Positions 28,056 to 58,053 of a stretch of DNA of 60,251 nucleotides are shown one piece after another. A program made the translations under genes and the position numbers. The stretch is from a virus. The DNA lies in the IMG/VR virus record IMGVR_UViG_3300033153_001386, positions 1 to 60,251 of that record. One strand, written 5' to 3'. Every line of letters starts with the position of its first letter. The first letter of the stretch is position 1. The notes under the pieces are model-generated. The model was not told where the DNA came from and did no database searches. It saw nothing but the letters and a program-made list of their open reading frames with translations.

Positions 28056-29591
28056 ATGAATGAAATACCTAAAGACCTTCACTTCGAGGGCACCAAGCTT
28101 ATCTCCGGAATCGAGAAGCTATCCAAAGCTGTCAAGAGTACTCTAGGTCCTAGCGGGCAGACTGTTCTCATCGAGAGTCCTCATCACACTCACGGCATTA
28201 CTGTAACCAAGGACGGTGTTACTGTGGCCAAGGCTGTCGACTTGATTGACCCTGTCGAGAACTTGGCGGTACGCATGATGAAGGAGGCTGCTGACAAGAC
28301 GGCTAGTGAGGCTGGCGACGGTACTACTACGAGCATTGTTTTGGCTGAGGCATTGGTCAAGGGCGGGGTTGGTTCTTTAGATGCCAACAAGACGGACGTG
28401 CTTCGGGACTTGGTGTCTTTAACTGAGGAGGTTGTTGAGGAGTTGACCAGTCGTAGCCGTCGTTTAACTAAGAAGCACTTGCGTAGTGTAGCTACCATCA
28501 GTGCTAACAACGACCGTTCGATTGGGAAAATCATTGCTGACGTTTACGATAAGGTGGGCAAGGACGGCGTTGTTACAGTTGAGAAGAGTATGACTAGCGA
28601 CACTGGGTTTAGCGTCACTCACGGCTTTAAGTTGGACCGGGGTTATTCTACTGAGTTGTTCATCAACGACCAGAGTCGTGACGAGTGTGTATTGGAGGGT
28701 TGTCACGTTATGGTATGCGACGGAGAGATTAGCAACGTATTGGCTATCGAGAAGGTCTTGGGTCCGATTATCCGTGACGGCAAGAAGCTATTGATTGTTG
28801 CTCCATGCAGCACTCATGTGGTGAACACATTGGCTGCGAACGTGATGAAGAAGGGTTTGAAGTTGTGCGTTGTTCCTCCCCCGAACTTTGGATATAAGCA
28901 GCACGAGCTTATGCAGGACTTAGCTGTGAGTGTTGGTGCCACGTACTTCAGTGAGAAGACTGGCGACGACTTGAGCTTGATGGAGTTTTCGGACTTGGGT
29001 TATGCGGACCGTGTTGTTGTTGGTCGCGGCGACACTGTTATTGTCAAGGGTGACAAGGAGGATGGTGTCGATGAGCGCATTGCCGAGTTGCAATCTGCTT
29101 TGGAGCTTGCCAAGCGAAAGGTTGACAAGGACTTCATCCGTCAGCGCATTGCCGGTTTGGTTGGAGGTATAGGAGTGATTGAGGTTGGGGGGCGTACTGA
29201 CTTGGAGCAGAAGGAGTTATACGACCGTGTCGACGACGCGGTATGTGCTGTTCGTGCTGCTATGCAGGACGGCATTGTTGCTGGCGGCGGGGTCACTCTA
29301 TACAACATAAGTCGCTGGTTATCAGACCGTGACGGTGTTGCTGCTAAAGTATTGCGTGAAGCTTTGCGTGCTCCCTTGAATCAAATCATGGAGAACTGCG
29401 GCGAGGGTTTCGATTACAGCATGTCACCTGACGGCGAGGGATACAACCTGAAGACTGGCGCGTACGGTGATATGATTGATATGGGCGTCATCGACCCTAC
29501 TCGGGTTACGAAGTCTGCGTTGCAGAACGCGGTCAGCGTTGCGGTCACCATCTTGAGCACTCAGGCCATCATCACACTTGCACGAGCATGA
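28056..29591 (+). CDS. groEL: Chaperonin GroEL (Cpn60), phage-encoded
   Basis: The 511-residue product is a group I chaperonin across its full length. Nucleotide-binding motifs are LGPSG (30-34), TKDGVTVAK (51-59), GDGTTTS (87-93, D88), and VAGGGV (408-413). The catalytic aspartate in VDDAVCAVRAAM (D393) is kept, so it should be an active ATPase. It is shorter than the ~545 residues of bacterial GroEL and ends ITLARA without the GGM tail. It probably folds the phage capsid or appendage proteins together with the phage GroES 240 nt downstream. It is the first gene of the rightward arm, under a promoter overlapped by the duplicated control element. Confidence 0.96.
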   Translation: MNEIPKDLHFEGTKLISGIEKLSKAVKSTLGPSGQTVLIESPHHTHGITVTKDGVTVAKAVDLIDPVENLAVRMMKEAADKTASEAGDGTTTSIVLAEALVKGGVGSLDANKTDVLRDLVSLTEEVVEELTSRSRRLTKKHLRSVATISANNDRSIGKIIADVYDKVGKDGVVTVEKSMTSDTGFSVTHGFKLDRGYSTELFINDQSRDECVLEGCHVMVCDGEISNVLAIEKVLGPIIRDGKKLLIVAPCSTHVVNTLAANVMKKGLKLCVVPPPNFGYKQHELMQDLAVSVGATYFSEKTGDDLSLMEFSDLGYADRVVVGRGDTVIVKGDKEDGVDERIAELQSALELAKRKVDKDFIRQRIAGLVGGIGVIEVGGRTDLEQKELYDRVDDAVCAVRAAMQDGIVAGGGVTLYNISRWLSDRDGVAAKVLREALRAPLNQIMENCGEGFDYSMSPDGEGYNLKTGAYGDMIDMGVIDPTRVTKSALQNAVSVAVTILSTQAIITLARA

Positions 29592-29845
29592 GGGAGGAGA
29601 TTACTGATTGGCTTGAGGCTGTTGAGGCCGGGGCTATGTTCGCCGACGGATTTGACGATGCCATCATGGGCATCACTGAGGTTCCGGACGGGTATCGGGT
29701 ATGCTATGATATTGGCCGCATCTTAGAGCTCCTTATCACCGACCACGGCATGGACGAGGTTGGGGCGATAGAGTATTTCGATTTTAATATTGCGGGCGCC
29801 TATGTGGGTCCGCTTACACCAATTTTTGTGCAATGCGTCCTATAG
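29588..29845 (+). CDS. Hypothetical protein between groEL and groES (85 aa)
   Basis: The 85-residue acidic protein (MREEITDWLEAVEAGAMFAD onward) overlaps groEL by 4 nt (ATGA) and groES by 13 nt, so it is co-translated with both chaperonin genes. No domain is recognised. Its position suggests a link with the chaperonin, for example a substrate adaptor, but the sequence does not show this. Confidence 0.78.
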   Translation: MREEITDWLEAVEAGAMFADGFDDAIMGITEVPDGYRVCYDIGRILELLITDHGMDEVGAIEYFDFNIAGAYVGPLTPIFVQCVL

Positions 29846-30093
29846 GAAAATATATTGTTTTAGACCAAGTCAAGGAGGAGACCACTACTGACAGCGGTTT
29901 GCTTTTGAGCGGTGAAGACACCGACAAGTTGCGCTACGGTCGTGGCGTTGTTGTGGCATCGGGTACCGACGTTGAGGTCATCTCCTCTGGCGAGGAGCTA
30001 TACTACGACAAGCGGGCGAGCTACACCATGTTGATTGACGGCATCGCTCGCACCATCATTTCTGAGCGCGATGTTGTCGTTGTACTTCATTGA
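29833..30093 (+). CDS. groES: Co-chaperonin GroES-like protein
   Basis: The 86-residue product has the GroES layout: PIGKYIVLDQVKEETTTDSG (3-22), a mobile-loop segment with a hydrophobic LLL (24-26) in place of GroES IVL, then the LRYGRGVVVASG strand (36-47), EELYYDKRASY in place of the usual KVGD-V-F segment, and a closing IISERDVVVVL (75-85). It would cap the phage GroEL, as T4 gp31 caps host GroEL. Gene order (groEL first) is the reverse of bacterial groES-groEL. Its 3' end overlaps the convergent HTH gene by 38 nt. Confidence 0.88.
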   Translation: MRPIGKYIVLDQVKEETTTDSGLLLSGEDTDKLRYGRGVVVASGTDVEVISSGEELYYDKRASYTMLIDGIARTIISERDVVVVLH

Positions 30094-44042: not shown

Positions 44043-46478
44043 ATGAAAGACGTCAAGATAAATATCTCCAGTGCTGGGTTTCCTAATCAGTTCGTTTCTG
44101 ACGCGGAGAAAGCTAGTGATGAGTATGGCTTGATGGTCGGTCAGGCCATTCAGTATGAGTGGTTTAAGAAGGATGGTAGCCAGTGCCGGTTTTACAACCA
44201 GTGGCGGGAGTTCAATCGCCTGCGTCTTTACGCTCGTGGTGAGCAGAGTATTGCTAAGTACAAGAACGAGCTTGCCGTCGACGGCGACCTTTCGTATTTG
44301 AATTTGGACTGGACCCCGGTTCCCATCTTGCCGAAGTTTATTGACATCGTAGTCAACGGTATGTCTGAGCGCGTCTTCAAGGTAAAGGCTTACGCGCAAG
44401 ACGCGTTGTCTCAGGCCAAGCGAAGCAAGTATCAGGATATGATTGAGGGTCAGATGGTAGCCAAGCCTGTCTTGGAAATCATCCAGCAAAAGACTGGTGT
44501 CGACCCATTTACCATGAACCCCGACGACTTGCCTAGCAGCGACGAGGAACTCAAGGTATACATGCAGCTTAACTACAAGCCTGCCATTGAGATTGCTGAA
44601 GAGGAGGCCATCAATACCATCCTCGAAGAAAACCACTACACCGACACGCGCAAAAGGTTGGACTACGACCTCGCTGTTTTGGGACTTAGTGTGGCTAAGC
44701 ACGAGTTCTTGCTTGGTTCTGGCGTTCAGGTATCTTATGTAGACCCGGCTAACGTAGTGTATAGCTATACCGAAGACCCGTACTTCAAGGACTGTTTCTA
44801 TTGGGGAGAGATTAAGACTTTGCCGATTACGGAGCTCATGAAGATTGACCCCAGCCTCACCAACGAGGACTTGGAGGAAATCAGTAAGTACAGTCAAAGC
44901 TGGTACGACTACTACAACACAGCTCAGTATTACGAGAACGATATGTTCCATCGTGATACAGCCACGTTGATGTACTTCAATTACAAGACGACCAAGAAGG
45001 TGGTCTATAAGCGTAAGAAGCTTGAGGGCGACGGCGCTCGCGTTATTGAAAAGGACGACCAGTTCAACCCTCCCGAGGAGATGATGGAGGAGGGTTCATA
45101 CGAGAAGGTTGAGAAGACCATTGACGTATGGTACGACGGCGTTATGGTTATGGGGACCAACATCCTATTGAAGTGGGAAGTGGCACAGAACATGGTGCGC
45201 CCTAAGTCTGCGTCTCAGCATGCCTTGCCAAACTATGTGGCTACAGCACCACGGATGTATAAGGGCGTTATCGAGTCGCTTACGCGGCGTATGATTCCTT
45301 TCGCGGACCTCATTCAAATTACGCACCTCAAGCTACAGCAGGTTATCTCTCGCACCGTTCCTGACGGAGTGTATATCGATGCTGATGGATTGAGTGAGGT
45401 AGACCTTGGTACGGGCAATGCCTATAGTCCAGAGGATGCTTTGCGCTTGTACTTCCAAACTGGTAGTGTAGTGGGGCGCTCATACACCCAAGACGGAGAG
45501 TACAATCAGGGAAAGGTTCCTATCCAAGAGCTGAATAGCAACAGCGGTGCCGCCAAGACGCAGATGCTGATTGGTAATATGAATCATTATTTGCAGATGA
45601 TTCGTGACGTAACGGGACTCAACGAGGCCCGCGACGGAAGTACTCCTGACCCCAACAGTCTTGTTGGATTGCAGAAGCTGGCTGCTGCCAATAGCAATAC
45701 GGCTACCCGACACATCTTGGATGGTAGCCTGTATATGTTCCGCTCTCTGGCTGAGGCACTTACATATCGTGTTAGCGATATTCTGGAGTACGCTGACTTC
45801 AAGGATGAGTTCGTTAATCAGATTGGTAAATACAACGTCAGTATCCTCCGTGAGATTAGTGAGCTGTACATCTATGACTTCGGTGTATTTATTGAGATTA
45901 GCCCCGACGAGGAGCAGCGTGCTCAGCTTGAGGCGAATATCCAAATGGCTTTGAGCAAGGGTGGTATCGACCTTGAGGACGCCATAGATATCCGAGAGAT
46001 TAAAAACATTAAGCTCGCCAACCAACTTCTCAAGATTAAGCGTGTTGCGAAGCAGGAGGAGGAGCGTCAGTTCCAGCTCCAGCAGCAGCAGATGCAGGCG
46101 CAGAACAACATGCAGTCACAGCAGATGGCGGCGCAGACCGCTATGCAAAAGATTCAGGCTGAGGCCCAGAGTAAGATGCAGGTCAAGCAGGCGGAGATTG
46201 CTTTCGAGATTGAGAAGATGCAAGCTGAGGCTCAGGCTAAGGCTCAGCTTATGGACCTTGAGTTCAAGTATAACCAACAGCTTCATGGCATGCAGGAGCA
46301 GCAGTTGCAGGTTCGGGAGGATAAGCGTGAAGACGCTAAGTCAAGCAGAATCAGTCAACAAAATACTGAGCAGAGCAAGCTTATTGACCAGCGGAAGAAT
46401 AACTTGCCGCCTATGAATTTCGAGTCGAACGAGGACAGCCTCGATGGTTTCGACTTGGCCGAGTTTAGTCCACGATAA
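44043..46478 (+). CDS. Portal protein (crAss-like)
   Basis: The 811-residue product follows terL with no gap, as portals do. The N-terminal segment has WFKKDGSQCRFYNQWREFNR and LNLDWTPVPILPKFIDIVVN, the style of crAss-like portals. The C-terminal ~130 residues are Gln/Ala/Glu-rich (coiled coil; LQQQQMQAQNNMQSQQMAAQ) and may form the barrel extending into the capsid. It forms the dodecameric ring for DNA passage at the packaging vertex. Confidence 0.9.
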   Translation: MKDVKINISSAGFPNQFVSDAEKASDEYGLMVGQAIQYEWFKKDGSQCRFYNQWREFNRLRLYARGEQSIAKYKNELAVDGDLSYLNLDWTPVPILPKFIDIVVNGMSERVFKVKAYAQDALSQAKRSKYQDMIEGQMVAKPVLEIIQQKTGVDPFTMNPDDLPSSDEELKVYMQLNYKPAIEIAEEEAINTILEENHYTDTRKRLDYDLAVLGLSVAKHEFLLGSGVQVSYVDPANVVYSYTEDPYFKDCFYWGEIKTLPITELMKIDPSLTNEDLEEISKYSQSWYDYYNTAQYYENDMFHRDTATLMYFNYKTTKKVVYKRKKLEGDGARVIEKDDQFNPPEEMMEEGSYEKVEKTIDVWYDGVMVMGTNILLKWEVAQNMVRPKSASQHALPNYVATAPRMYKGVIESLTRRMIPFADLIQITHLKLQQVISRTVPDGVYIDADGLSEVDLGTGNAYSPEDALRLYFQTGSVVGRSYTQDGEYNQGKVPIQELNSNSGAAKTQMLIGNMNHYLQMIRDVTGLNEARDGSTPDPNSLVGLQKLAAANSNTATRHILDGSLYMFRSLAEALTYRVSDILEYADFKDEFVNQIGKYNVSILREISELYIYDFGVFIEISPDEEQRAQLEANIQMALSKGGIDLEDAIDIREIKNIKLANQLLKIKRVAKQEEERQFQLQQQQMQAQNNMQSQQMAAQTAMQKIQAEAQSKMQVKQAEIAFEIEKMQAEAQAKAQLMDLEFKYNQQLHGMQEQQLQVREDKREDAKSSRISQQNTEQSKLIDQRKNNLPPMNFESNEDSLDGFDLAEFSPR

Positions 46479-47563: not shown

Positions 47564-49003
47564 ATGGCAGGTTCAGTAAACACAACCCCGGGGTTCCAAC
47601 TCCAGCCGAGCGCAGACCAAGTCCCGCTCTCGACAAACTACATCACCAACTTCAACTTTCTCAACCAGTATCTCCCTGATACTTACGAGAAGGAGTTCGA
47701 GCGTTATGGAAATCGCACAGTAGCATCGTTCCTCCGTATGGTTGGCGCGGAGTTGCCATCCAATTCAGACCTCATCAAGTGGGCTGAGCAGGGTCGTCTC
47801 CACACCAAGTATGTCGAGTGTGGCACGACAGCCGCTGCTGCTGCTAATGTCGCAACATTTCAAGTCAATGACGTCTTGAACGCTAACGGATTTGTTGGTG
47901 GCCATACAGCTAACAACATCGCTATCCGTGTCGGTCAAACTGTAATGCTTGACCAGAACAATGGCACCGGAAGTAACAAGGCTATCGTGACCGACGTTGA
48001 CCTTACGCTCAATCAGTTTGACGTTGCGTTCTATGACGCTGGTGGATACGCTGGTGTTGCTGGAGCCCTTACGGACACTAATGTAACTGTGTTCATTTAC
48101 GGTTCTGAGTTCGAGAAAGGAACTTTAGGAATGGATGGTTCACTCGAAGCTGAGGACGAAATCTTTGAGTGCAGCCCTATCATTCTGAAGGACAAGTATG
48201 CGGTCAATGGTTCTGACATGGCTCAGATTGGATGGATTGAAGTGACCACCGAGAACGGTGCGAATGGATACCTCTGGTACATGAAGTCTGAGCACGAGAC
48301 CCGTCTCCGATTCGACGACTACCTCGAGACATCTATGCTGGAAGCAGTTCCTGCTGACGTAGGTGGTGCTGGTTCAGGTGCAGCGTCTGCTGGTTACAAG
48401 GGTACCGACGGTATCTTCTATACCCTCGAGACTCGTGGTAACGTTTGGTCTGGCGGTATCCCCGCCGCTTTGGCTGACTTCGATGCAATCATCTCTCGCT
48501 TGGATAAGCAGGGTGCCATCGAGGAGAACGTCATCTTCGTTAACCGTGACTTCGGGTTTGCCATCGACGATATGTTGGCTGCTCAGAATAGCTACGGTGC
48601 TGGCGGAACTAGCTACGGCTTGTTCGACAACGACGAGCAGATGGCTCTCAACCTTGGCTTCACAGGCTTCCGCCGTGGTTACGACTTCTACAAGTCTGAC
48701 TGGAAGTACTTGAACGACCCAACTATGCGTGGTGGTCTCGCTTCTGGCGGAATCAACGGCATGATGGTTCCTGCCGGTAGCACTACCGTGTACGACCAAG
48801 TGTTGGGTAAGAACGCCAAGCGTCCGTTCCTCCACGTCCGCTACCGTGCCTCTGAGACTGAGGACCGCCGGTACAAGACTTGGATTACAGGTTCTGCTGG
48901 CGGAGCTATGACTAGCGACCGTGACGCGATGGAAGTAAACTACCTCTCTGAGCGTGCAGTATGCACCATGGGAGCGAACAACTTCTTCCTGTTTAACGAC
49001 TGA
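47564..49003 (+). CDS. Major capsid protein (crAss-like)
   Basis: The 479-residue product sits behind portal and scaffold and matches the crAss-like major capsid style (LSTNYITNFNFLNQYLPDTY; RTVASFLRMVGAELPSNSDL). The C-terminal half contains GTSYGLFDNDEQMALNLGFT and a conserved RRYKTWITGSAGGAMT region. An HK97 fold is expected from the family. A strong GC hairpin follows the stop. It is the likely main client of the phage chaperonin. Confidence 0.92.
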   Translation: MAGSVNTTPGFQLQPSADQVPLSTNYITNFNFLNQYLPDTYEKEFERYGNRTVASFLRMVGAELPSNSDLIKWAEQGRLHTKYVECGTTAAAAANVATFQVNDVLNANGFVGGHTANNIAIRVGQTVMLDQNNGTGSNKAIVTDVDLTLNQFDVAFYDAGGYAGVAGALTDTNVTVFIYGSEFEKGTLGMDGSLEAEDEIFECSPIILKDKYAVNGSDMAQIGWIEVTTENGANGYLWYMKSEHETRLRFDDYLETSMLEAVPADVGGAGSGAASAGYKGTDGIFYTLETRGNVWSGGIPAALADFDAIISRLDKQGAIEENVIFVNRDFGFAIDDMLAAQNSYGAGGTSYGLFDNDEQMALNLGFTGFRRGYDFYKSDWKYLNDPTMRGGLASGGINGMMVPAGSTTVYDQVLGKNAKRPFLHVRYRASETEDRRYKTWITGSAGGAMTSDRDAMEVNYLSERAVCTMGANNFFLFND

Positions 49004-51275: not shown

Positions 51276-51302
51276 TATAGTTACTCTTTCAGAATTCAAA
51301 AG

Positions 51303-51328
51303 AGCCACCTTCGGGTGGCTTTTTTTTT
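51303..51328 (+). terminator. Strong rho-independent terminator with UUCG loop
   Basis: AGCCACC-TTCG-GGTGGCT followed by a run of nine T: a 7-bp stem with a stable tetraloop. It lies 28 nt behind the connector gene and 14 nt before the start of the T9SS cargo gene. Confidence 0.93.
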
Positions 51329-51341
51329 AGACCTTCGTTTC

Positions 51342-52565
51342 ATGAAGCGTTGGCTCCTACTACTCTACTTCCCTTTATCTTCTTACGCCCAGTGCGACCT
51401 TGAGCTCCTTGACTTTAACTCCGTGAATGGGTTGGTTACGGTGGCGTTTCACAATACCAATGGTTGCGGTGGTACGGGCGGTCCCGATGGGGTGTCCGAA
51501 ATTCAATTCGGATTCCAAGCTGTAGACGAGGACTGTAATGCCATGAATATCGGGTGGGACTTCCCGTTTGAATTTTCTATCTCGGGCACAAACAACCATC
51601 CCGGATGGATATTCTCTTCTACTACTACTGAGCTCGGAGGGAATTGGACGAACCTGTATGACGACTCTCTAGACCCCCCGTACTATACGGGGGATACGGT
51701 CTCGTTCCCTGTATTCAATTCATATCAGAACGATTGTGTGGACGGTGAGTTCTCCGGCTTTGCTAGTTGTGAGCTTTCTAACGTCATCGACTACTGGGCT
51801 AGTGAGGGGTACAGCATTCAGGTTGTGATATGGCAGATTAGCTATGGGCCTACTATGTATGCGGCTGACGGAGGTTGGGCTGAGGTTGGTGTTAATGGTG
51901 ACGGTACTTCGTGGGGAAGCGGATTATATGAAGATGCCAACTTCATAGACAATTGGATTGTGGTGGGCCCATGCGGTGAGCCGCTACCTGAGGTTGTCGT
52001 GGACACGGTGTATATCGAGCTGCCAGCGGATACCGTTGTGATAGTAGAGTACGACACGCTATACATTGAGTTGCCGCCCGATACGATTCTTTTGGTAGAG
52101 TACGACACTACGTTTGTGGAGCTCCCTACCGATACGATTCTTTTAGTAGAGTACGATACCACCTATATCGAGTTGCCACCTATTTCCGTGGTGGTTTGGG
52201 ACACGGTCTATATTACGCTTTTAGACACCATAATCGTAGAGGTAGACTGTCAGACTGGGCAGGAGTGCTTAGAGGTTATCGAGTGCCCCATATATGCTCC
52301 TAACGCCTTTACACCGGACAACGACGGGGTCAACGACACTTGGTTTATTGAGGCTCCCAACGACTGCTGGGACAACGTGTACATCAGGGTGTATTCTAGG
52401 TGGGGAGATTTGGTATGGGTTTCGAAAGACTTCAGCGAGAGATGGGACGGTGGTTTCGACAAGGCTTATGTTCGTGACGACGTGTATGTCTATCACTTTG
52501 TGGCTAGAAATATCTATAGCAATCAGTGGGTTGAGCGTACTGGTCACGTGCTAGTATTGAGATGA
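51342..52565 (+). CDS. Exported protein with type IX secretion (T9SS) type B sorting domain
   Basis: The start at ATG 51342 gives 407 residues with a signal peptide (MKRWLLLLYFPLSSYAQ); an upstream start (51315) lies inside the terminator. The mature part has an N-terminal domain with several Cys/Trp residues, then about four 17-residue repeats (DTxYIELPxDTILLVEY; about 221-285). The C-terminal ~93 residues (315-407) begin CPIYAPNAFTPDNDGVND, continue with VYIRVYSRWGDLVW and end ERTGHVLVLR. This is the gliding-motility-associated type B sorting domain used by the Bacteroidetes T9SS to export proteins through the outer membrane. The phage thus appears to make a host-surface or secreted protein during infection. 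It sits as an insert between connector genes and looks acquired from a host. Confidence 0.92.
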   Translation: MKRWLLLLYFPLSSYAQCDLELLDFNSVNGLVTVAFHNTNGCGGTGGPDGVSEIQFGFQAVDEDCNAMNIGWDFPFEFSISGTNNHPGWIFSSTTTELGGNWTNLYDDSLDPPYYTGDTVSFPVFNSYQNDCVDGEFSGFASCELSNVIDYWASEGYSIQVVIWQISYGPTMYAADGGWAEVGVNGDGTSWGSGLYEDANFIDNWIVVGPCGEPLPEVVVDTVYIELPADTVVIVEYDTLYIELPPDTILLVEYDTTFVELPTDTILLVEYDTTYIELPPISVVVWDTVYITLLDTIIVEVDCQTGQECLEVIECPIYAPNAFTPDNDGVNDTWFIEAPNDCWDNVYIRVYSRWGDLVWVSKDFSERWDGGFDKAYVRDDVYVYHFVARNIYSNQWVERTGHVLVLR

Positions 52566-52578
52566 TTATCTTTAGAGA

Positions 52579-53295
52579 ATGATTGATTCAGTCCGTCAAA
52601 CCGTGCTATCCATTCTTAATAAGAACAATTACGGTTACGTATCTCCATCCGACTTCAATCTCTTTGCCAAGCAGGCGCAGCTAGAGATTTTTGAGAACTA
52701 CTTTACTGGCCTCAACCAAGCCATCAACGCGGAGAACGCGCGTATGTCTGGTACGGACTACGCCAATATGACCAAGGGCATCAACGAGGACATCGACATC
52801 TTCTCGGTGTCTAAGGATTTGACACAGAATACAAACAACCTGTTCTTTACACCAAGTGTCACAACCACCAGTGACGACTACTACTTGCTGAACAAGGTAT
52901 TGGTCAACGGAGCTGAAGCCGAGCCTGTTACGCATAGCCGCATCACCATGTTGGCCAACTCGAACTTGACGGCTCCGTCGGAACAGTATCCTGCTTACAC
53001 CATCGACAATCCCGCCGCTGGTCAGGTGGTCACAGTATATCCTACAGGCACTACGTACGCACAGGGCGATGTGGTGTGCCAATACGTGCGGTATCCCTTC
53101 GACCCGAAGTGGACGTATGTCACGCTTGCCAACGGAGAGCCTGTATTCAATCAGTCCTCTACGGACTACCAAGACTTTGAGCTGCCTATCGATGATGAAC
53201 CTAGGCTTGTGTATGGCATCTTACAGATGGCTGGCATGAGCATCCGAGAGGGCGACGTCTATCAGTACGCTAACGCAGAAGAGAAAGAGCAGTAA
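52579..53295 (+). CDS. Ring/adaptor protein, crAss-like (238 aa)
   Basis: The product opens with IDSVRQTVLSILNKNNYGYV and LFAKQAQLEIFENYF, the recognisable N-terminus of the ring (head-tail adaptor) proteins of crAss-like phages. The C-terminal part DDEPRLVYGILQMAGMSIRE is helical. It would form a dodecameric ring below the portal. The start is fixed by the ATTATCTTTAGAGAATG leader. The stop overlaps the next ATG by one base. Confidence 0.87.
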   Translation: MIDSVRQTVLSILNKNNYGYVSPSDFNLFAKQAQLEIFENYFTGLNQAINAENARMSGTDYANMTKGINEDIDIFSVSKDLTQNTNNLFFTPSVTTTSDDYYLLNKVLVNGAEAEPVTHSRITMLANSNLTAPSEQYPAYTIDNPAAGQVVTVYPTGTTYAQGDVVCQYVRYPFDPKWTYVTLANGEPVFNQSSTDYQDFELPIDDEPRLVYGILQMAGMSIREGDVYQYANAEEKEQ

Positions 53296-54218
53296 TGGCA
53301 TACATCACAGACTACCAGTATTACGAGAACGGGGGCAATACTCCTGAAGACGCGAACTGGGGAAGCTACCAATACGTTTCGTTGCAGGATATCGTCAACA
53401 ACTTCCTGTTGATGTACAACGGCAACCACTCTCTTGTTAATAACGAGGAGCGGTACAAGATTTTGTTTCATGCCAAGCGGGCCATTCAAGAGTTGAACTA
53501 CGACTCCTTGAAAGAGATTAAGGTTCTTGAGCTCAGTGTCTGTGATAGCTTACGGTTTGTCCTACCTCCCGACTACGTCAATTGGGTGCGTATCTCTCTT
53601 TATAAGGACGGAATCCTGCGACCGTTAACGGAGAATATCCAGACAAATTGGAGTTCGGCGTATCTGCAAGACAACAACTGCCGTATTCTTTTTGACGAGA
53701 CGGGGGCTACGCTACGCCCTCAAGATTCTACCATCGACTTCGACCGTATTACTGGAACCAAGCCTAGTATCTACCTCAACGGAAACAATCAGTTCGACGG
53801 TCAGCTCGGGTATTGCTGCGATGGTTCTTGGTATTTCGACTACAACATAGGCGCCCGCTATGGCTTGAACACGGAGACTGCTAACGCAAATCCCACGTTT
53901 AGCATCAACAAGAAGGGGGGTGTCATCAACTTCAGCAGTCACATGGCTGACGAGCTGTGCGTCATCGAGTACGTTAGCGACGGCATGGAGGGCGGTAACA
54001 ACGCTGAGATTAGCGTGAACAAGATGTTCGAGGAATATGTGTACGCATACATCCAGTACGCCATCCTTGACGCTAAGTTGGGTGTACAGGAATACATCGT
54101 GGGTCGGGCGAGGAAGAAAAAGAACGCGCTTCTTCGCAACGCGAAGCTTCGTGTCAGTAACATCCACCCCGGGCGTTTGCTGATGAATATGCGTGGTCGC
54201 GACAAGTGGATTAAGTAA
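53295..54218 (+). CDS. Ring/adaptor protein 2, crAss-like (307 aa)
   Basis: The 307-residue product begins MAYITDYQYYENGGNTPEDA and contains YVSLQDIVNNFLLMYNGNHS and RYKILFHAKRAIQELNYDSL, the pattern of the second ring protein of crAss-like phages, tail-tubular-protein-like. The C-terminus is basic. The stop shares its last base with the muzzle gene start (TAATG). Confidence 0.87.
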   Translation: MAYITDYQYYENGGNTPEDANWGSYQYVSLQDIVNNFLLMYNGNHSLVNNEERYKILFHAKRAIQELNYDSLKEIKVLELSVCDSLRFVLPPDYVNWVRISLYKDGILRPLTENIQTNWSSAYLQDNNCRILFDETGATLRPQDSTIDFDRITGTKPSIYLNGNNQFDGQLGYCCDGSWYFDYNIGARYGLNTETANANPTFSINKKGGVINFSSHMADELCVIEYVSDGMEGGNNAEISVNKMFEEYVYAYIQYAILDAKLGVQEYIVGRARKKKNALLRNAKLRVSNIHPGRLLMNMRGRDKWIK

Positions 54219-57200
54219 TGGCGAATCTGGTAAGGAACTTCATCAAGGGGCGTATGAACAAGAGCGTCGACGAGCGCCTTGTCCCCAACGGAGAGTATAT
54301 CGATGCCCGTAATATTCGGATGGGTTCCACCGAGGACTCTGAGATTGGAGCGGTAGAGAACACCAAGGGTAATACACGCCTTACCAATTTGGTATACCCA
54401 CCTACGGGTACTGCCATCAGTAACAAATCAACTTGCCTTGGGGCATATAGCGATGGTGCCAACGAGACCATGTACTGGTTCGTTCACGACCCTGCGTTTA
54501 CTGAAGGTGGTACGGGAAAGCTCGACCTCATCGTTTCGTACAATATGCGTAGCGACCTACTGACGTACCATGTGGTCAGTATCGAGGACGCTTCCGACCC
54601 TACGAATAGCAATACCACGCTGAACTTCGACCCGCAGTATCTAATTACGGGTATCGACTTGGTTGACGACCTGTTGTTCTTTACCGACGACTTCAACCCT
54701 CCGCGCCGAATCAATGTAGGCACGGCCTATCCTGAGCCTGTGGCTTTTGAGGATAGTGGCGTTTTAGGAAACGACATTCTCGTTATCAAGCGCCCGCCTT
54801 TAGAAGCCCCTGTGGTAGCACCTGTTGCGGTGGTCTCTAGGGAAGACTATATGGAGGACAGGCTGTTGTGCTTTGGTTACCGGTGGGAGTATGCCAACAA
54901 CGAGTACTCAGCAACGTCTATGTTCAGTGCTCCTGTATTTGAGAGCGAACCGTTTGCCTTTACCACTGAGTCGTACCTCAACGAGGGTATGGTCAACTCC
55001 GTGCAGGTGTGCGACGTTACGGTGCGTACTGGGGACTCTTTGGTGAAGGGTATCGACATCTTGTTCAAGGAGATGGATGACAATATCATCCGTGTCATTG
55101 AGAAGGTAGACAAGGCAGACTCCGCTTTGACGGACAACTCTGACTACACCATCCAGTTCAGCAAGCAAAAGATTTTCACCATCCTTCCGGAGAGTGAGAT
55201 ACTGCGACTGTATGACAACGTCCCTCGGTTGGCTAAGGCCCAGACCTTGATGGGCAATAGGATTGTCTATGGCAACTACCTCGAGGGGTACGACATGGTC
55301 AATATGAACGGCCTGCCCAATAAGCTTGGATACAACGTGTCACTGGTTCAGACACCTTTGGATGCCGAAGCGGCAAGCACTCAACCTACGTTCTCTGCCC
55401 CTAGCCTACACAGCAACCGTGTGTATGAGATTGGAATCGTATACATGGATGAGTTCGGACGGTCTAGTACTGCCCTTGTTGCGCCTAATAATAAGGTTGA
55501 ACTTGAGTGTGGGGACTCTATTTTTCAAAACCAGATTCGTGCGACCATCCCTTCGTTGATGTTACCCCCCTCGTGGGCTAGTAGATACAAGTTTGTCATC
55601 AAGCCCGACAGTGAGAATTACGAGACCATCTACACCAACCAGAACTTTGTGTGGCCTGCGCTGCCCGACCCGGATGACCCTCAGCCTGATGTAATTGATG
55701 TTTATTTCCTGCTCGAAGGAGAGAACGCGGCCAAGGTAGAGAAGGGGGACAGATACGTTGTGAAGAGCGACACCTCTGGTGCGGTTACGTCATGTACTTA
55801 CGCTGAGGTTCTAGAGAAGAAGGCATACGGTGTGGGTGAGCTGGATAACAGCGACCCTCTCGAGCCTATTCCAGCTATTGCGGGTACGTATATGAAGATG
55901 AACCCGGACTTCTCTTACTCGGCTCCTCCGGAGGCAAACACCGCCCCCGGAGAGCAGTCGGCAGGAACAAACGGTGGCGCAGACCAAAGGACGGAGAACG
56001 GACCGGGCGACTCCGGCGATTACCCTGTACTCGTATACAAGTTCAATGACAAGGACGGTGGTGTTTTGCGTGAGGTCCCCGCAGGGAGCCGCATCCGTCT
56101 TACGTTCAGCCTTACCCGTCAGGGCCGAGGCGACGGAACGGGCTCGTGCGAAAAGCGTACCCTTGACTTCGACCATACGTGGGAGGTGGAGCAGGACTAC
56201 GCCTCTATTATCGAGTGGTTCTACGACACTGGAAACGGCGTGATTGCCACTATCGAGGCAGCGGAAGGATTTACCGGAGACCCCAACGGAACTCCGCCGG
56301 ACATAACGGTCTTATCCGAGTACACCGGAACCAACACGGATAACTTTGGCGTGGCTTCCGGCACAGGTGAGGTCATGCTATGGACCGACCAAGGTGGCGC
56401 CGGAGGCCCATGGCTCATTATCTATGGCTCTGAAAAATGCGGTGGTGTAACTGGTGGCAGCAGTCCTAATCGCAGGTCTAGGGTTAAAGCAAGCCTTGCC
56501 ATCACACGGGCTACTGATGTTGTCGTTTTCGAAACCGAGCCGCAGCCAGCTTTGCCCGACCTGTGGTATGAGTCGAGCGCGTCGTTTTTTATTGACCAGC
56601 AGAATGGTCGGCACTACGGCAATGTACAAGACCAGACGGGGGCTCAACCGGCCATCATCGACACGGCGTTCTTCAACTGCATAAGCTACGGCAATGGTGT
56701 CGAGAGCTATAAGATTCGTGATTCGATTAGCGGCAAGCCCATTACCTTGGGCAACCGCGTTACTACGACCAGCGACGAGCGGTTCTCTCAGGTGCGACGC
56801 TTTGCTGACCTGACGTATAGCGGTGTCATTAACGATGAGACCAACATCAACAAGCTCAATGAGTTCAACCTTGGGTTGCTCAACTTCAAGCCGCTAGAGG
56901 ACAGCTATGGGAGGATAAGATTAGCTATGTCTTGGCAGGCAAGAACCTCCTTACCGACGCTACTGGTGAGAGCGTGGTTACGTCTGTGCCGGAAGTATTG
57001 GGTAATCAGGTGGCCCGCGTTGAGGACTTTGGTATCAGCAACAACCCCGAGAGCTTTGCTGAGTGGGGCCCGCACAAGTTCTTTACCGACGCCAAGCGTG
57101 GCTCTGTCATCCACCTCTATGGCGATGGGCAGAACGAGCAGCTCACGGTCATCAGTGAGAACGGTATGCGGAGCTGGTTCCGCGATGAGTTTATCGAAAG

Positions 57201-57241
57201 CTTCAACACGCAGAAGCTTGGGGGGTACGACCCGTATATGA
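54218..57241 (+). CDS. Tail muzzle/stabilisation protein, N-terminal part (frameshifted)
   Basis: This 1007-codon frame starts MANLVRNFIKGRMNKSVDER, the recognisable start of the tail muzzle/stabilisation protein of crAss-like phages. It is sound until about residue 898 (EDSYG). From 56909 the frame turns Arg/Ser-rich, while the neighbouring -1 frame continues the protein (GEDKISYVLAGKNLLTDATG). One base seems missing in GGG at 56909-56911; with GGGG the gene would run to 58053 as one protein of about 1278 residues. It is either a sequencing or assembly indel, a real mutation or a -1 ribosomal frameshift. The last 110 codons of this frame are probably not translated. The protein closes the tail tip in the family. 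Confidence 0.85.
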   Translation: MANLVRNFIKGRMNKSVDERLVPNGEYIDARNIRMGSTEDSEIGAVENTKGNTRLTNLVYPPTGTAISNKSTCLGAYSDGANETMYWFVHDPAFTEGGTGKLDLIVSYNMRSDLLTYHVVSIEDASDPTNSNTTLNFDPQYLITGIDLVDDLLFFTDDFNPPRRINVGTAYPEPVAFEDSGVLGNDILVIKRPPLEAPVVAPVAVVSREDYMEDRLLCFGYRWEYANNEYSATSMFSAPVFESEPFAFTTESYLNEGMVNSVQVCDVTVRTGDSLVKGIDILFKEMDDNIIRVIEKVDKADSALTDNSDYTIQFSKQKIFTILPESEILRLYDNVPRLAKAQTLMGNRIVYGNYLEGYDMVNMNGLPNKLGYNVSLVQTPLDAEAASTQPTFSAPSLHSNRVYEIGIVYMDEFGRSSTALVAPNNKVELECGDSIFQNQIRATIPSLMLPPSWASRYKFVIKPDSENYETIYTNQNFVWPALPDPDDPQPDVIDVYFLLEGENAAKVEKGDRYVVKSDTSGAVTSCTYAEVLEKKAYGVGELDNSDPLEPIPAIAGTYMKMNPDFSYSAPPEANTAPGEQSAGTNGGADQRTENGPGDSGDYPVLVYKFNDKDGGVLREVPAGSRIRLTFSLTRQGRGDGTGSCEKRTLDFDHTWEVEQDYASIIEWFYDTGNGVIATIEAAEGFTGDPNGTPPDITVLSEYTGTNTDNFGVASGTGEVMLWTDQGGAGGPWLIIYGSEKCGGVTGGSSPNRRSRVKASLAITRATDVVVFETEPQPALPDLWYESSASFFIDQQNGRHYGNVQDQTGAQPAIIDTAFFNCISYGNGVESYKIRDSISGKPITLGNRVTTTSDERFSQVRRFADLTYSGVINDETNINKLNEFNLGLLNFKPLEDSYGRIRLAMSWQARTSLPTLLVRAWLRLCRKYWVIRWPALRTLVSATTPRALLSGARTSSLPTPSVALSSTSMAMGRTSSSRSSVRTVCGAGSAMSLSKASTRRSLGGTTRI

Positions 57242-58053
57242 ACGAGTACGTGTTAGCAAGTAACGATGTCTTCCTACCCGGTCAGGAGGATTGCATCGAG
57301 TGCAATACGGTGCAGACGTTCCTGCTTACTCCGGCTCAACAGAGTTTCTGCGTCAACCTCGGCAATATCACTGGCGACGTTTCCATTAGCTACAACGTAA
57401 TTGAGGCGTCTCTACCGGACTCGGCTACTATTACCACTACGTATGGTGGTTCGAGCGTTACCACTGGCCCGATTACTTATGGTGCTCAACCCCCTGTACC
57501 AGATGTAAATAAAAATTCTATTACGGACAACACCGTAAAGATTGACCTTAACTACTCAGGTTCAAGACGTTTCGTGTTGCAGGTTCAGGTCAAGTGTCCT
57601 GACGAAGTGGACTTGAAGTTGAGATTGATTACGGTTAACCGCCCCAATGAAGCACGGCAATCCATCCATAGCGAATTCTTTTGGCAAGATGGTGTGTTCG
57701 TATCTCCTTTGAGCAGTACCGCCGTTACGTTTGACTACGCCGCGTTAGGTCCTGTCATCTCAGACTGGCAGGAGTTTACTGTAGCTCAGGGTAGCAACCT
57801 TGGTCCAACCAATGGTAGCACTATTACCATGGCGTACAATAGGATTGGCACGGACAACTATACGTTGCGCCCCTCCGACACGTTCAAGTGGTTGCGTACT
57901 AATGTTGAGTATCTGAAAGGGGACATTGTGACGCTCTTGGGTGCGGCTAACACTGAGACACCTGTAGGCGCACAACCCGAGTACACTGCCGACTTCCTTA
58001 TGCCACCGGGCACCGATGAGTACCTCTACCTAATCTGGGATTATTCGAACTAA
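56932..58053 (+). CDS. Tail muzzle/stabilisation protein, C-terminal part (frameshifted)
   Basis: This part continues the muzzle protein in the -1 frame. The coding similarity starts upstream of the TTG at 56932, so this is not an independent start codon but the middle of a gene. It contains FGISNNPESFAEWGPHKFFT and GMRSWFRDEFIESFNTQKLG, then a beta-rich C-terminal domain ending EYLYLIWDYSN. The last base of the stop is shared with the next ATG (TAATG). See the N-terminal part for the frameshift at 56909-56911. Confidence 0.85.
   Translation: MAGKNLLTDATGESVVTSVPEVLGNQVARVEDFGISNNPESFAEWGPHKFFTDAKRGSVIHLYGDGQNEQLTVISENGMRSWFRDEFIESFNTQKLGGYDPYMNEYVLASNDVFLPGQEDCIECNTVQTFLLTPAQQSFCVNLGNITGDVSISYNVIEASLPDSATITTTYGGSSVTTGPITYGAQPPVPDVNKNSITDNTVKIDLNYSGSRRFVLQVQVKCPDEVDLKLRLITVNRPNEARQSIHSEFFWQDGVFVSPLSSTAVTFDYAALGPVISDWQEFTVAQGSNLGPTNGSTITMAYNRIGTDNYTLRPSDTFKWLRTNVEYLKGDIVTLLGAANTETPVGAQPEYTADFLMPPGTDEYLYLIWDYSN

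Follow-up and report, generated by a model that had tools for sequence, protein, structure and literature searches.

The cargo gene and its product

The window analysed here is the whole of a 60,251-nucleotide stretch from an IMG/VR virus record, in which terminase, portal and virion structural proteins recognised with PHROGs flank the gene under study on both sides. This gene (51342..52565, + strand) is an open reading frame of 407 aa that begins with ATG and encodes a cargo protein of the type IX secretion system (T9SS), type B. An alternative GTG start at 51315 was ruled out, since translation from it would run through a terminator hairpin. The neighbours on the same strand include the portal gene (44043..46478; phrog_6547, E=1.3e-145), an upstream virion structural gene that is probably the major capsid gene (47564..49003; phrog_13704, E=4.6e-99) and a downstream virion structural gene (52579..53295; phrog_14543, E=1.6e-43). 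Relatives of the window's portal were found in phages of Flavobacterium, Cellulophaga, Maribacter and Tenacibaculum, which are the hosts of the nearest phages whose hosts are known, and in the uncultured Manatee Spring podovirus. Two other features of the window were recorded. At 28056-30093 (+) the phage encodes a GroES-like protein and a GroEL-like chaperonin of its own (phrog_5725), both of which are also encoded by relatives. A frame break at 56905-56920 splits the large virion gene, so that the 1286-aa homologue from another phage (L053) matches 54218-56920 and 56905-58050 in two different frames. This break may be an assembly error, a disrupted gene or a programmed shift.

The cargo protein begins with a Sec signal peptide, MKRWLLLLYFPLSSYA (51342..51389, +), which read by eye has the form K/R-hydrophobic-SYA|Q of a signal peptidase I substrate. 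The Q that follows the cleavage site is invariant in the aligned homologues (alignments A1 and A2) and corresponds to the Bacteroidetes Q-rule (PMC5837995). The mature N-terminal domain of about 197 aa (51390..51980, +), hereafter the N-domain or payload, contains Cys and ends at about residue 213. It is followed by 17-residue repeats of the form DTxYIELPPDT that would serve as a linker or stalk (51990..52241, +); in the window they read DTVYIELPPDT, with a period of 51 nt (17 aa) detected by Tandem Repeats Finder at 52042-52156, and their number differs among aligned homologues. The C-terminal sorting domain (CTD; 52284..52562, +) comprises residues 315-407, the last 93 residues of the protein, starting CPIYAPNAFTPDNDGVND and ending ERTGHVLVLR. 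An earlier note on this DNA had described a signal peptide, repeats of about 17 residues and a C-terminal domain of about 93 residues, and all three were confirmed. That note had also recognised a type B T9SS sorting signal, and this was borne out when the protein was searched against the two relevant models: residues 319-403 matched TIGR04131, the T9SS type B sorting domain (E=4.9e-11, 42.6 bits, curated cut-off 35), and Pfam PF13585, CHU_C (E=1.1e-14, 54.7 bits, cut-off 27). Both matches are far beyond chance, and TIGR04131 also matched 25 of 25 homologues scanned. The lack of a type B match, which the note had given as grounds for dropping its reading, was thus not what the search returned. 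The cargo gene is under purifying selection, because dN/dS is mostly 0.05-0.25 where dS is unsaturated, with a few small-sample segments reaching 0.37.

The insertion site

A perfect hairpin resembling an intrinsic terminator (GCCACC-TTCG-GGTGGC followed by T9; 51298..51328, +) ends 13 nt 5' of the cargo ATG. On the other side, the element TTATCTTTAG (52566..52575, +) directly follows the stop codon and precedes the ATG of the downstream virion gene; it is similar to the Bacteroidetes -7 box TAnnTTTG and lies at the boundary of the insertion. The gene is thus placed between a terminator on its 5' side and a promoter-like element on its 3' side. A consensus promoter was searched for upstream of the cargo ATG and was not found, and copies of the promoter motif GGACCTTNG, which occurs near the cargo gene, are not in excess in the window. 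In dozens of related phages (L187-L245) a conserved terminator and, after it, TATCTTTG, a -7 box of Bacteroidetes type, lie 5' of homologues of the downstream virion gene, which suggests that another late promoter follows the capsid block.

The comparison of related phages for presence or absence at this locus, which the earlier note had proposed, revealed a precise occupied and empty site. Among the ten close loci, chosen because their next (virion) gene is at least 89% identical to that of the window, the cargo gene is present in seven and absent from three (L176, L177 and L178), a count that rests on these near loci only. In the alignment of loci the hairpin is kept in occupied and empty sites alike, and in the three empty sites a short T-rich stretch leads from it directly to CTATCTTAG and the start codon of the virion gene. 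More distant relatives, including the Flavobacterium elemo, Manatee Spring and Maribacter Panino phages, are also without the cargo gene here. Occupied and empty sites share the same junction elements, and the cargo gene is therefore an accessory ('moron') insertion with sharp borders rather than a constant member of the virion operon. The earlier note had placed the T9SS cargo within a virion structural operon; the structural neighbourhood was confirmed by PHROGs, but the gene itself is an accessory insertion that stands outside the structural programme.

Genomic settings and other T9SS cargo

Scans combining sequence patterns with tblastn found the cargo gene at 37 and then 79 viral loci, and a third scan with other patterns returned about the same set; these loci were collected by possession of the cargo gene, so that frequencies among them are biased. 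With about 79 viral contigs carrying the gene, the view in the earlier note that such a T9SS cargo is unusual did not hold. Clustering of gene neighbourhoods placed the homologues in at least five genomic settings. In the window's clade (setting A) the gene lies before a virion gene, while in a second podovirus-like lineage, with TerL 47-49% and portal about 30-33% identical (setting B), it lies just 5' of TerL. In phages such as L084 and L099 (setting C) it is antisense to its neighbours and beside a DUF5675 gene. In the 100-110 kb phages L031 and L066 (setting D) it is found among QueC/D/E-, ThyX- and FolE-like genes, right after an M43 metalloprotease gene, and in L037 and L098 (setting E) it follows a very long ORF. 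Several clade B phages have a tRNA-Ile (anticodon TAT) directly before the cargo gene or a short distance 5' of it (L026:3551-3625, L027:2601-2675 and L062:7782-7856).

One alternative is that the protein belongs to the virion, as an Ig-like decoration or tail protein whose likeness to T9SS cargo is only superficial. Ig-like domains are often carried by phages, and in the window the gene does sit among virion genes. However, the protein has a signal peptide with an invariant Q and, as in every homologue scanned, a true match to the type B model, and the gene is absent from close relatives whose flanking virion genes otherwise match. It also has no PHROG match and no constant place in a structural operon, lying elsewhere on the opposite strand or in a region of metabolic genes. 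The varied settings therefore disfavour a virion role, which we regard as very improbable, and the idea of a T9SS cargo tied to the virion operon was dropped after the settings had been compared.

Some of these phages carry further T9SS-type cargo. In L099 (9758-13984, - strand) and its relatives L161-L166, a second cargo protein of 841-911 aa combines GCxDPxAxNYxxxANxDDGSC repeats with a type A CTD (TIGR04183, 32.7 bits). Next to its gene are those for an exported thioredoxin-like protein and for a protein of 347 aa that resembles an outer-membrane barrel and has a Q-rule signal peptide. Type A cargo was present in 6 of 15 phage records having the type B gene; a type A CTD was searched for elsewhere in the window and was not found. 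In the 100-110 kb phages, the gene directly 5' of the type B gene (L031:1494-6443, +, equivalent to L066:4494-9440) encodes an M43 pappalysin-like metalloprotease that ends in a type A-like tail, and a fasciclin-domain gene lies nearby, amid the queuosine-, ThyX- and FolE-like genes.

A virus-restricted payload domain

The payload is almost exclusively viral, whereas the tag that it carries is of host type. Only one contig in GTDB matched (L042), with a 134-position fragment in a Flavobacteriales MAG, and a profile of the N-domain matched 1 of 399 genomes of the order and 1 of 395 genomes of the phylum, in both cases this MAG. The type B CTD by itself, searched as a positive control, matched 198 of 199 genomes of the same order. 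The L042 contig was considered as evidence of a bacterial family and rejected, as it holds a contig-end fragment in an in-frame fusion that may be chimeric. At this contig end (L042:7830-9410) the initial part of the N-domain gene lies just after a tRNA-Ser and runs into a truncated hydrolase-like ORF, and the fragment is possibly a phage remnant at a tRNA or a chimeric assembly.

These data also bear on the possibility that the gene was recently captured from a host and is carried as a passenger without a phage function. The CTD and the Q-rule signal are host-type features, as such an origin would predict, but the N-domain is nearly absent from bacteria, and the gene is under purifying selection and is spread over many phage lineages. 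This reading is disfavoured, and we consider it hardly credible.

About 60 positions of the N-domain are invariant among 34 sequences, and in comparisons across lineages it is the most conserved part of the cargo protein. Searches of Pfam, NCBIfam, PHROGs, PDB sequences (best E=0.035) and Foldseek/VIA returned nothing significant for this domain, and BFVD returned only a viral homologue, A0A516LPX6, which is 55% identical. When superinfection-exclusion families were considered, the N-domain had no significant Pfam match and its fold-search matches were below significance. A first AlphaFold model of the full-length protein was poor (pLDDT 53), and modelling with 34 homologues gave a moderate model of the N-domain (pLDDT 69, pTM 0.72) whose resemblances to beta-sandwich folds are weak and below significance, so that a beta-sandwich is only weakly predicted. 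The comparison of the mature region with structure databases, which the earlier note had proposed, thus gave no significant match.

Apparent exchange of the payload between lineages

The mature payload appears to move between phage lineages, with the signal peptide and CTD staying with the lineage. In a set of 74 sequences, the identity of the N-domain is only loosely coupled to that of the CTD (r=0.42). In the pairs L061/L072 and L028/L057 the N-domains are 94-95% identical and the CTDs 39-41%, and some members of clade A, a group defined by its flanking genes, have N-domains that are 60-68% identical yet CTDs that are 89-92% identical. In the maximum-likelihood tree of the CTD, the 17 clade A rows fall on one side of a branch with support of 99/96. 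In the corresponding N-domain tree clade A needs six changes, and its grouping is rejected (AU p=1.25e-8). The signal peptide starts with MKRWLLLL at 26 of 26 clade A loci and at 0 of 52 others. At the DNA level, cross-lineage pairs are 73-90% identical over the mature domain, and their signal peptides, CTDs and flanks are mostly near background, although L061 and L073 have a downstream flank in common.

For L028/L057 the synonymous distance (dS) of the N-domain is 0.49 (0.49-0.58 when L028/L054 is included) and the TerL dS is saturated, which supports a recent exchange of the N-domain in these two pairs, and a dS of 1.1 for L014/L059 is consistent with such an exchange. For cross-lineage pairs in which dS is saturated, strong purifying selection and not recent exchange may lie behind part of the similarity. 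The 5' and 3' ends of the gene may also simply be anchored by lineage-specific flanks. We infer that signal peptide and CTD are matched to the host shuttles of each lineage. The chances seem evenly balanced for a broader proposal, in which Bacteroidota phages draw on a common stock of secreted surface-effector domains, and payload cassettes swapped inside lineage-specific export frames re-address one payload to the T9SS shuttles of different hosts; this would be a virus-evolved system of address labels and payloads and, together with the type A cargo, the barrel-like protein and the thioredoxin-like protein of some phages, a small viral secretome.

Predicted export and possible function

The earlier note had proposed that the phage hijacks the host T9SS. 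Because the phage encodes a T9SS type B cargo, export by the host Sec and T9SS machinery is the best inference, though the idea is not new, having been raised for type A cargo of Cryophage (PMC7468147). In Bacteroidota, PorP/SprF-like barrels collect and anchor type B cargos (PMC9143113), and in F. johnsoniae secretion needs five CTD motifs and three orphan cargos use one shuttle in common (PMC12618676). A PorP homologue was found in 0 of 14 phage records, the positive control being 14 matches in a Flavobacteriales MAG (G016). As with the orphan type B cargos of F. johnsoniae, the shuttle would therefore be that of the host. Nor was a cognate PorP/SprF gene found adjacent to the cargo gene in these records; such a neighbour is common but not universal in type B cargo, and its lack is not disqualifying.

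The interpretation that we consider probable is that this is an accessory phage gene whose product is exported by the Sec and T9SS pathways of Flavobacteriia, with lineage-kept address labels on an exchanged payload, and alters the surface of the infected cell. Export itself, the shuttle, the timing and the surface role are predictions from sequence. Sec and signal peptidase I would release the protein into the periplasm with an N-terminal Q, and the host T9SS translocon (SprA) would carry it across the outer membrane by means of its type B CTD. A host barrel of the PorP/SprF family would probably then retain it on the surface or release it, and the repeat stalk would hold the virus-specific mature domain away from the cell. 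The payload would be common to several phage lineages, with signal peptide and CTD as address labels that are presumably matched to the host, and its most likely task would be to change the surface of the infected cell to the benefit of the phage.

What that change might be can be weighed against the conservation of the payload. If the protein acts in superinfection exclusion or receptor masking, both of which the earlier note had given as examples, its domain on the cell surface would bind or cover the receptor of the phage and thereby keep other phages, or released progeny, from adsorbing. The CTD matches predict surface display, the accessory presence and absence of the gene fits an arms-race gene, and this role has been proposed for the type A cargo of Cryophage (PMC7468147). 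However, the payload is strongly conserved, with its many invariant positions, and it is swapped among lineages with different structural genes, which is a poor fit to a lineage-specific receptor. A payload that is both conserved and traded points to a target found in many hosts, which weakens simple receptor masking, and we regard superinfection exclusion or receptor masking as possible but not probable. A conserved common ligand would also explain how one payload serves many phage lineages if the protein were a repeat-stalked adhesin through which infected cells adhere to one another or to particles or glycans, helping progeny to spread. The signal peptide, Cys-containing mature domain, repeat stalk and type B CTD do resemble those of Bacteroidota surface adhesins, but no adhesin or carbohydrate-binding family was recognised in sequence searches and structure matches were below significance, which leaves adhesion or aggregation doubtful. 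A third possibility is competition for shuttles: by taking up the PorP/SprF shuttles of the host, the phage CTD would crowd out SprB or other host type B cargo, with effects on gliding and on whatever phage receptor that cargo carries. Type B cargo needs such shuttles (PMC9143113) and orphan cargos share one (PMC12618676), the 14 phage records yielded no PorP, and the CTDs diverge between lineages. Competition of this kind would, however, make a conserved payload needless, yet the N-domain is the part best conserved across lineages, and this explanation seems unlikely.

With a conserved and widespread virus-restricted payload on type B tags, it can be tested whether the T9SS serves phages to remodel the surface of the living infected cell. 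The natural swaps of payload and CTD are also a ready-made panel for what in a type B CTD specifies the PorP/SprF shuttle.

Comparison with known systems

To our knowledge, there are few known cases in which a phage exports a protein by a dedicated secretion machine of its host. The closest precedent is Cryophage (Nat Commun 2020, PMC7468147), in which T9SS type A cargo varies between close phages and for which both hijacking of the secretion system and superinfection exclusion were suggested. Both cases involve phage-encoded proteins with a T9SS sorting domain and variable presence. However, the Cryophage proteins have type A CTDs on an endoglucanase, a GH39 protein and a PA14 protein in one phage (PMC7468147), whereas the cargo of the window has a type B CTD on a virus-restricted domain that is found in at least five settings with mosaic exchange. 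The ORFs of BACON cluster 2 in crAss-like phages, which lie near proteins with a T9SS sorting domain, are similar in that such domains are encoded upstream of head genes in phages of Bacteroidota, but differ in their BACON carbohydrate-binding repeats (PMC6949934).

Among the hosts, type B cargo proteins such as SprB, PG1035 and the orphan cargos of F. johnsoniae also combine a signal peptide with a type B CTD, and the orphans use a PorP/SprF shuttle encoded elsewhere (PMC9143113, PMC12618676). Those genes are chromosomal and often beside porP/sprF, whereas the gene described here is phage-encoded and no porP was detected in the phage records searched. Q-rule proteins of Porphyromonas gingivalis phages are likewise adapted to host Sec and signal peptidase I and were proposed to modify the outer surface, but a T9SS sorting domain was not reported for them (PMC10367356). 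In open-access text, the phrase 'type B sorting domain' together with phage returned no paper under that wording. Phage T9SS cargo, including the idea of hijacking, is therefore already known. As far as the literature was searched, what is new is a type B cargo, a widespread virus-restricted payload family, an exact occupied and empty site, and the mosaicism of payload and label.
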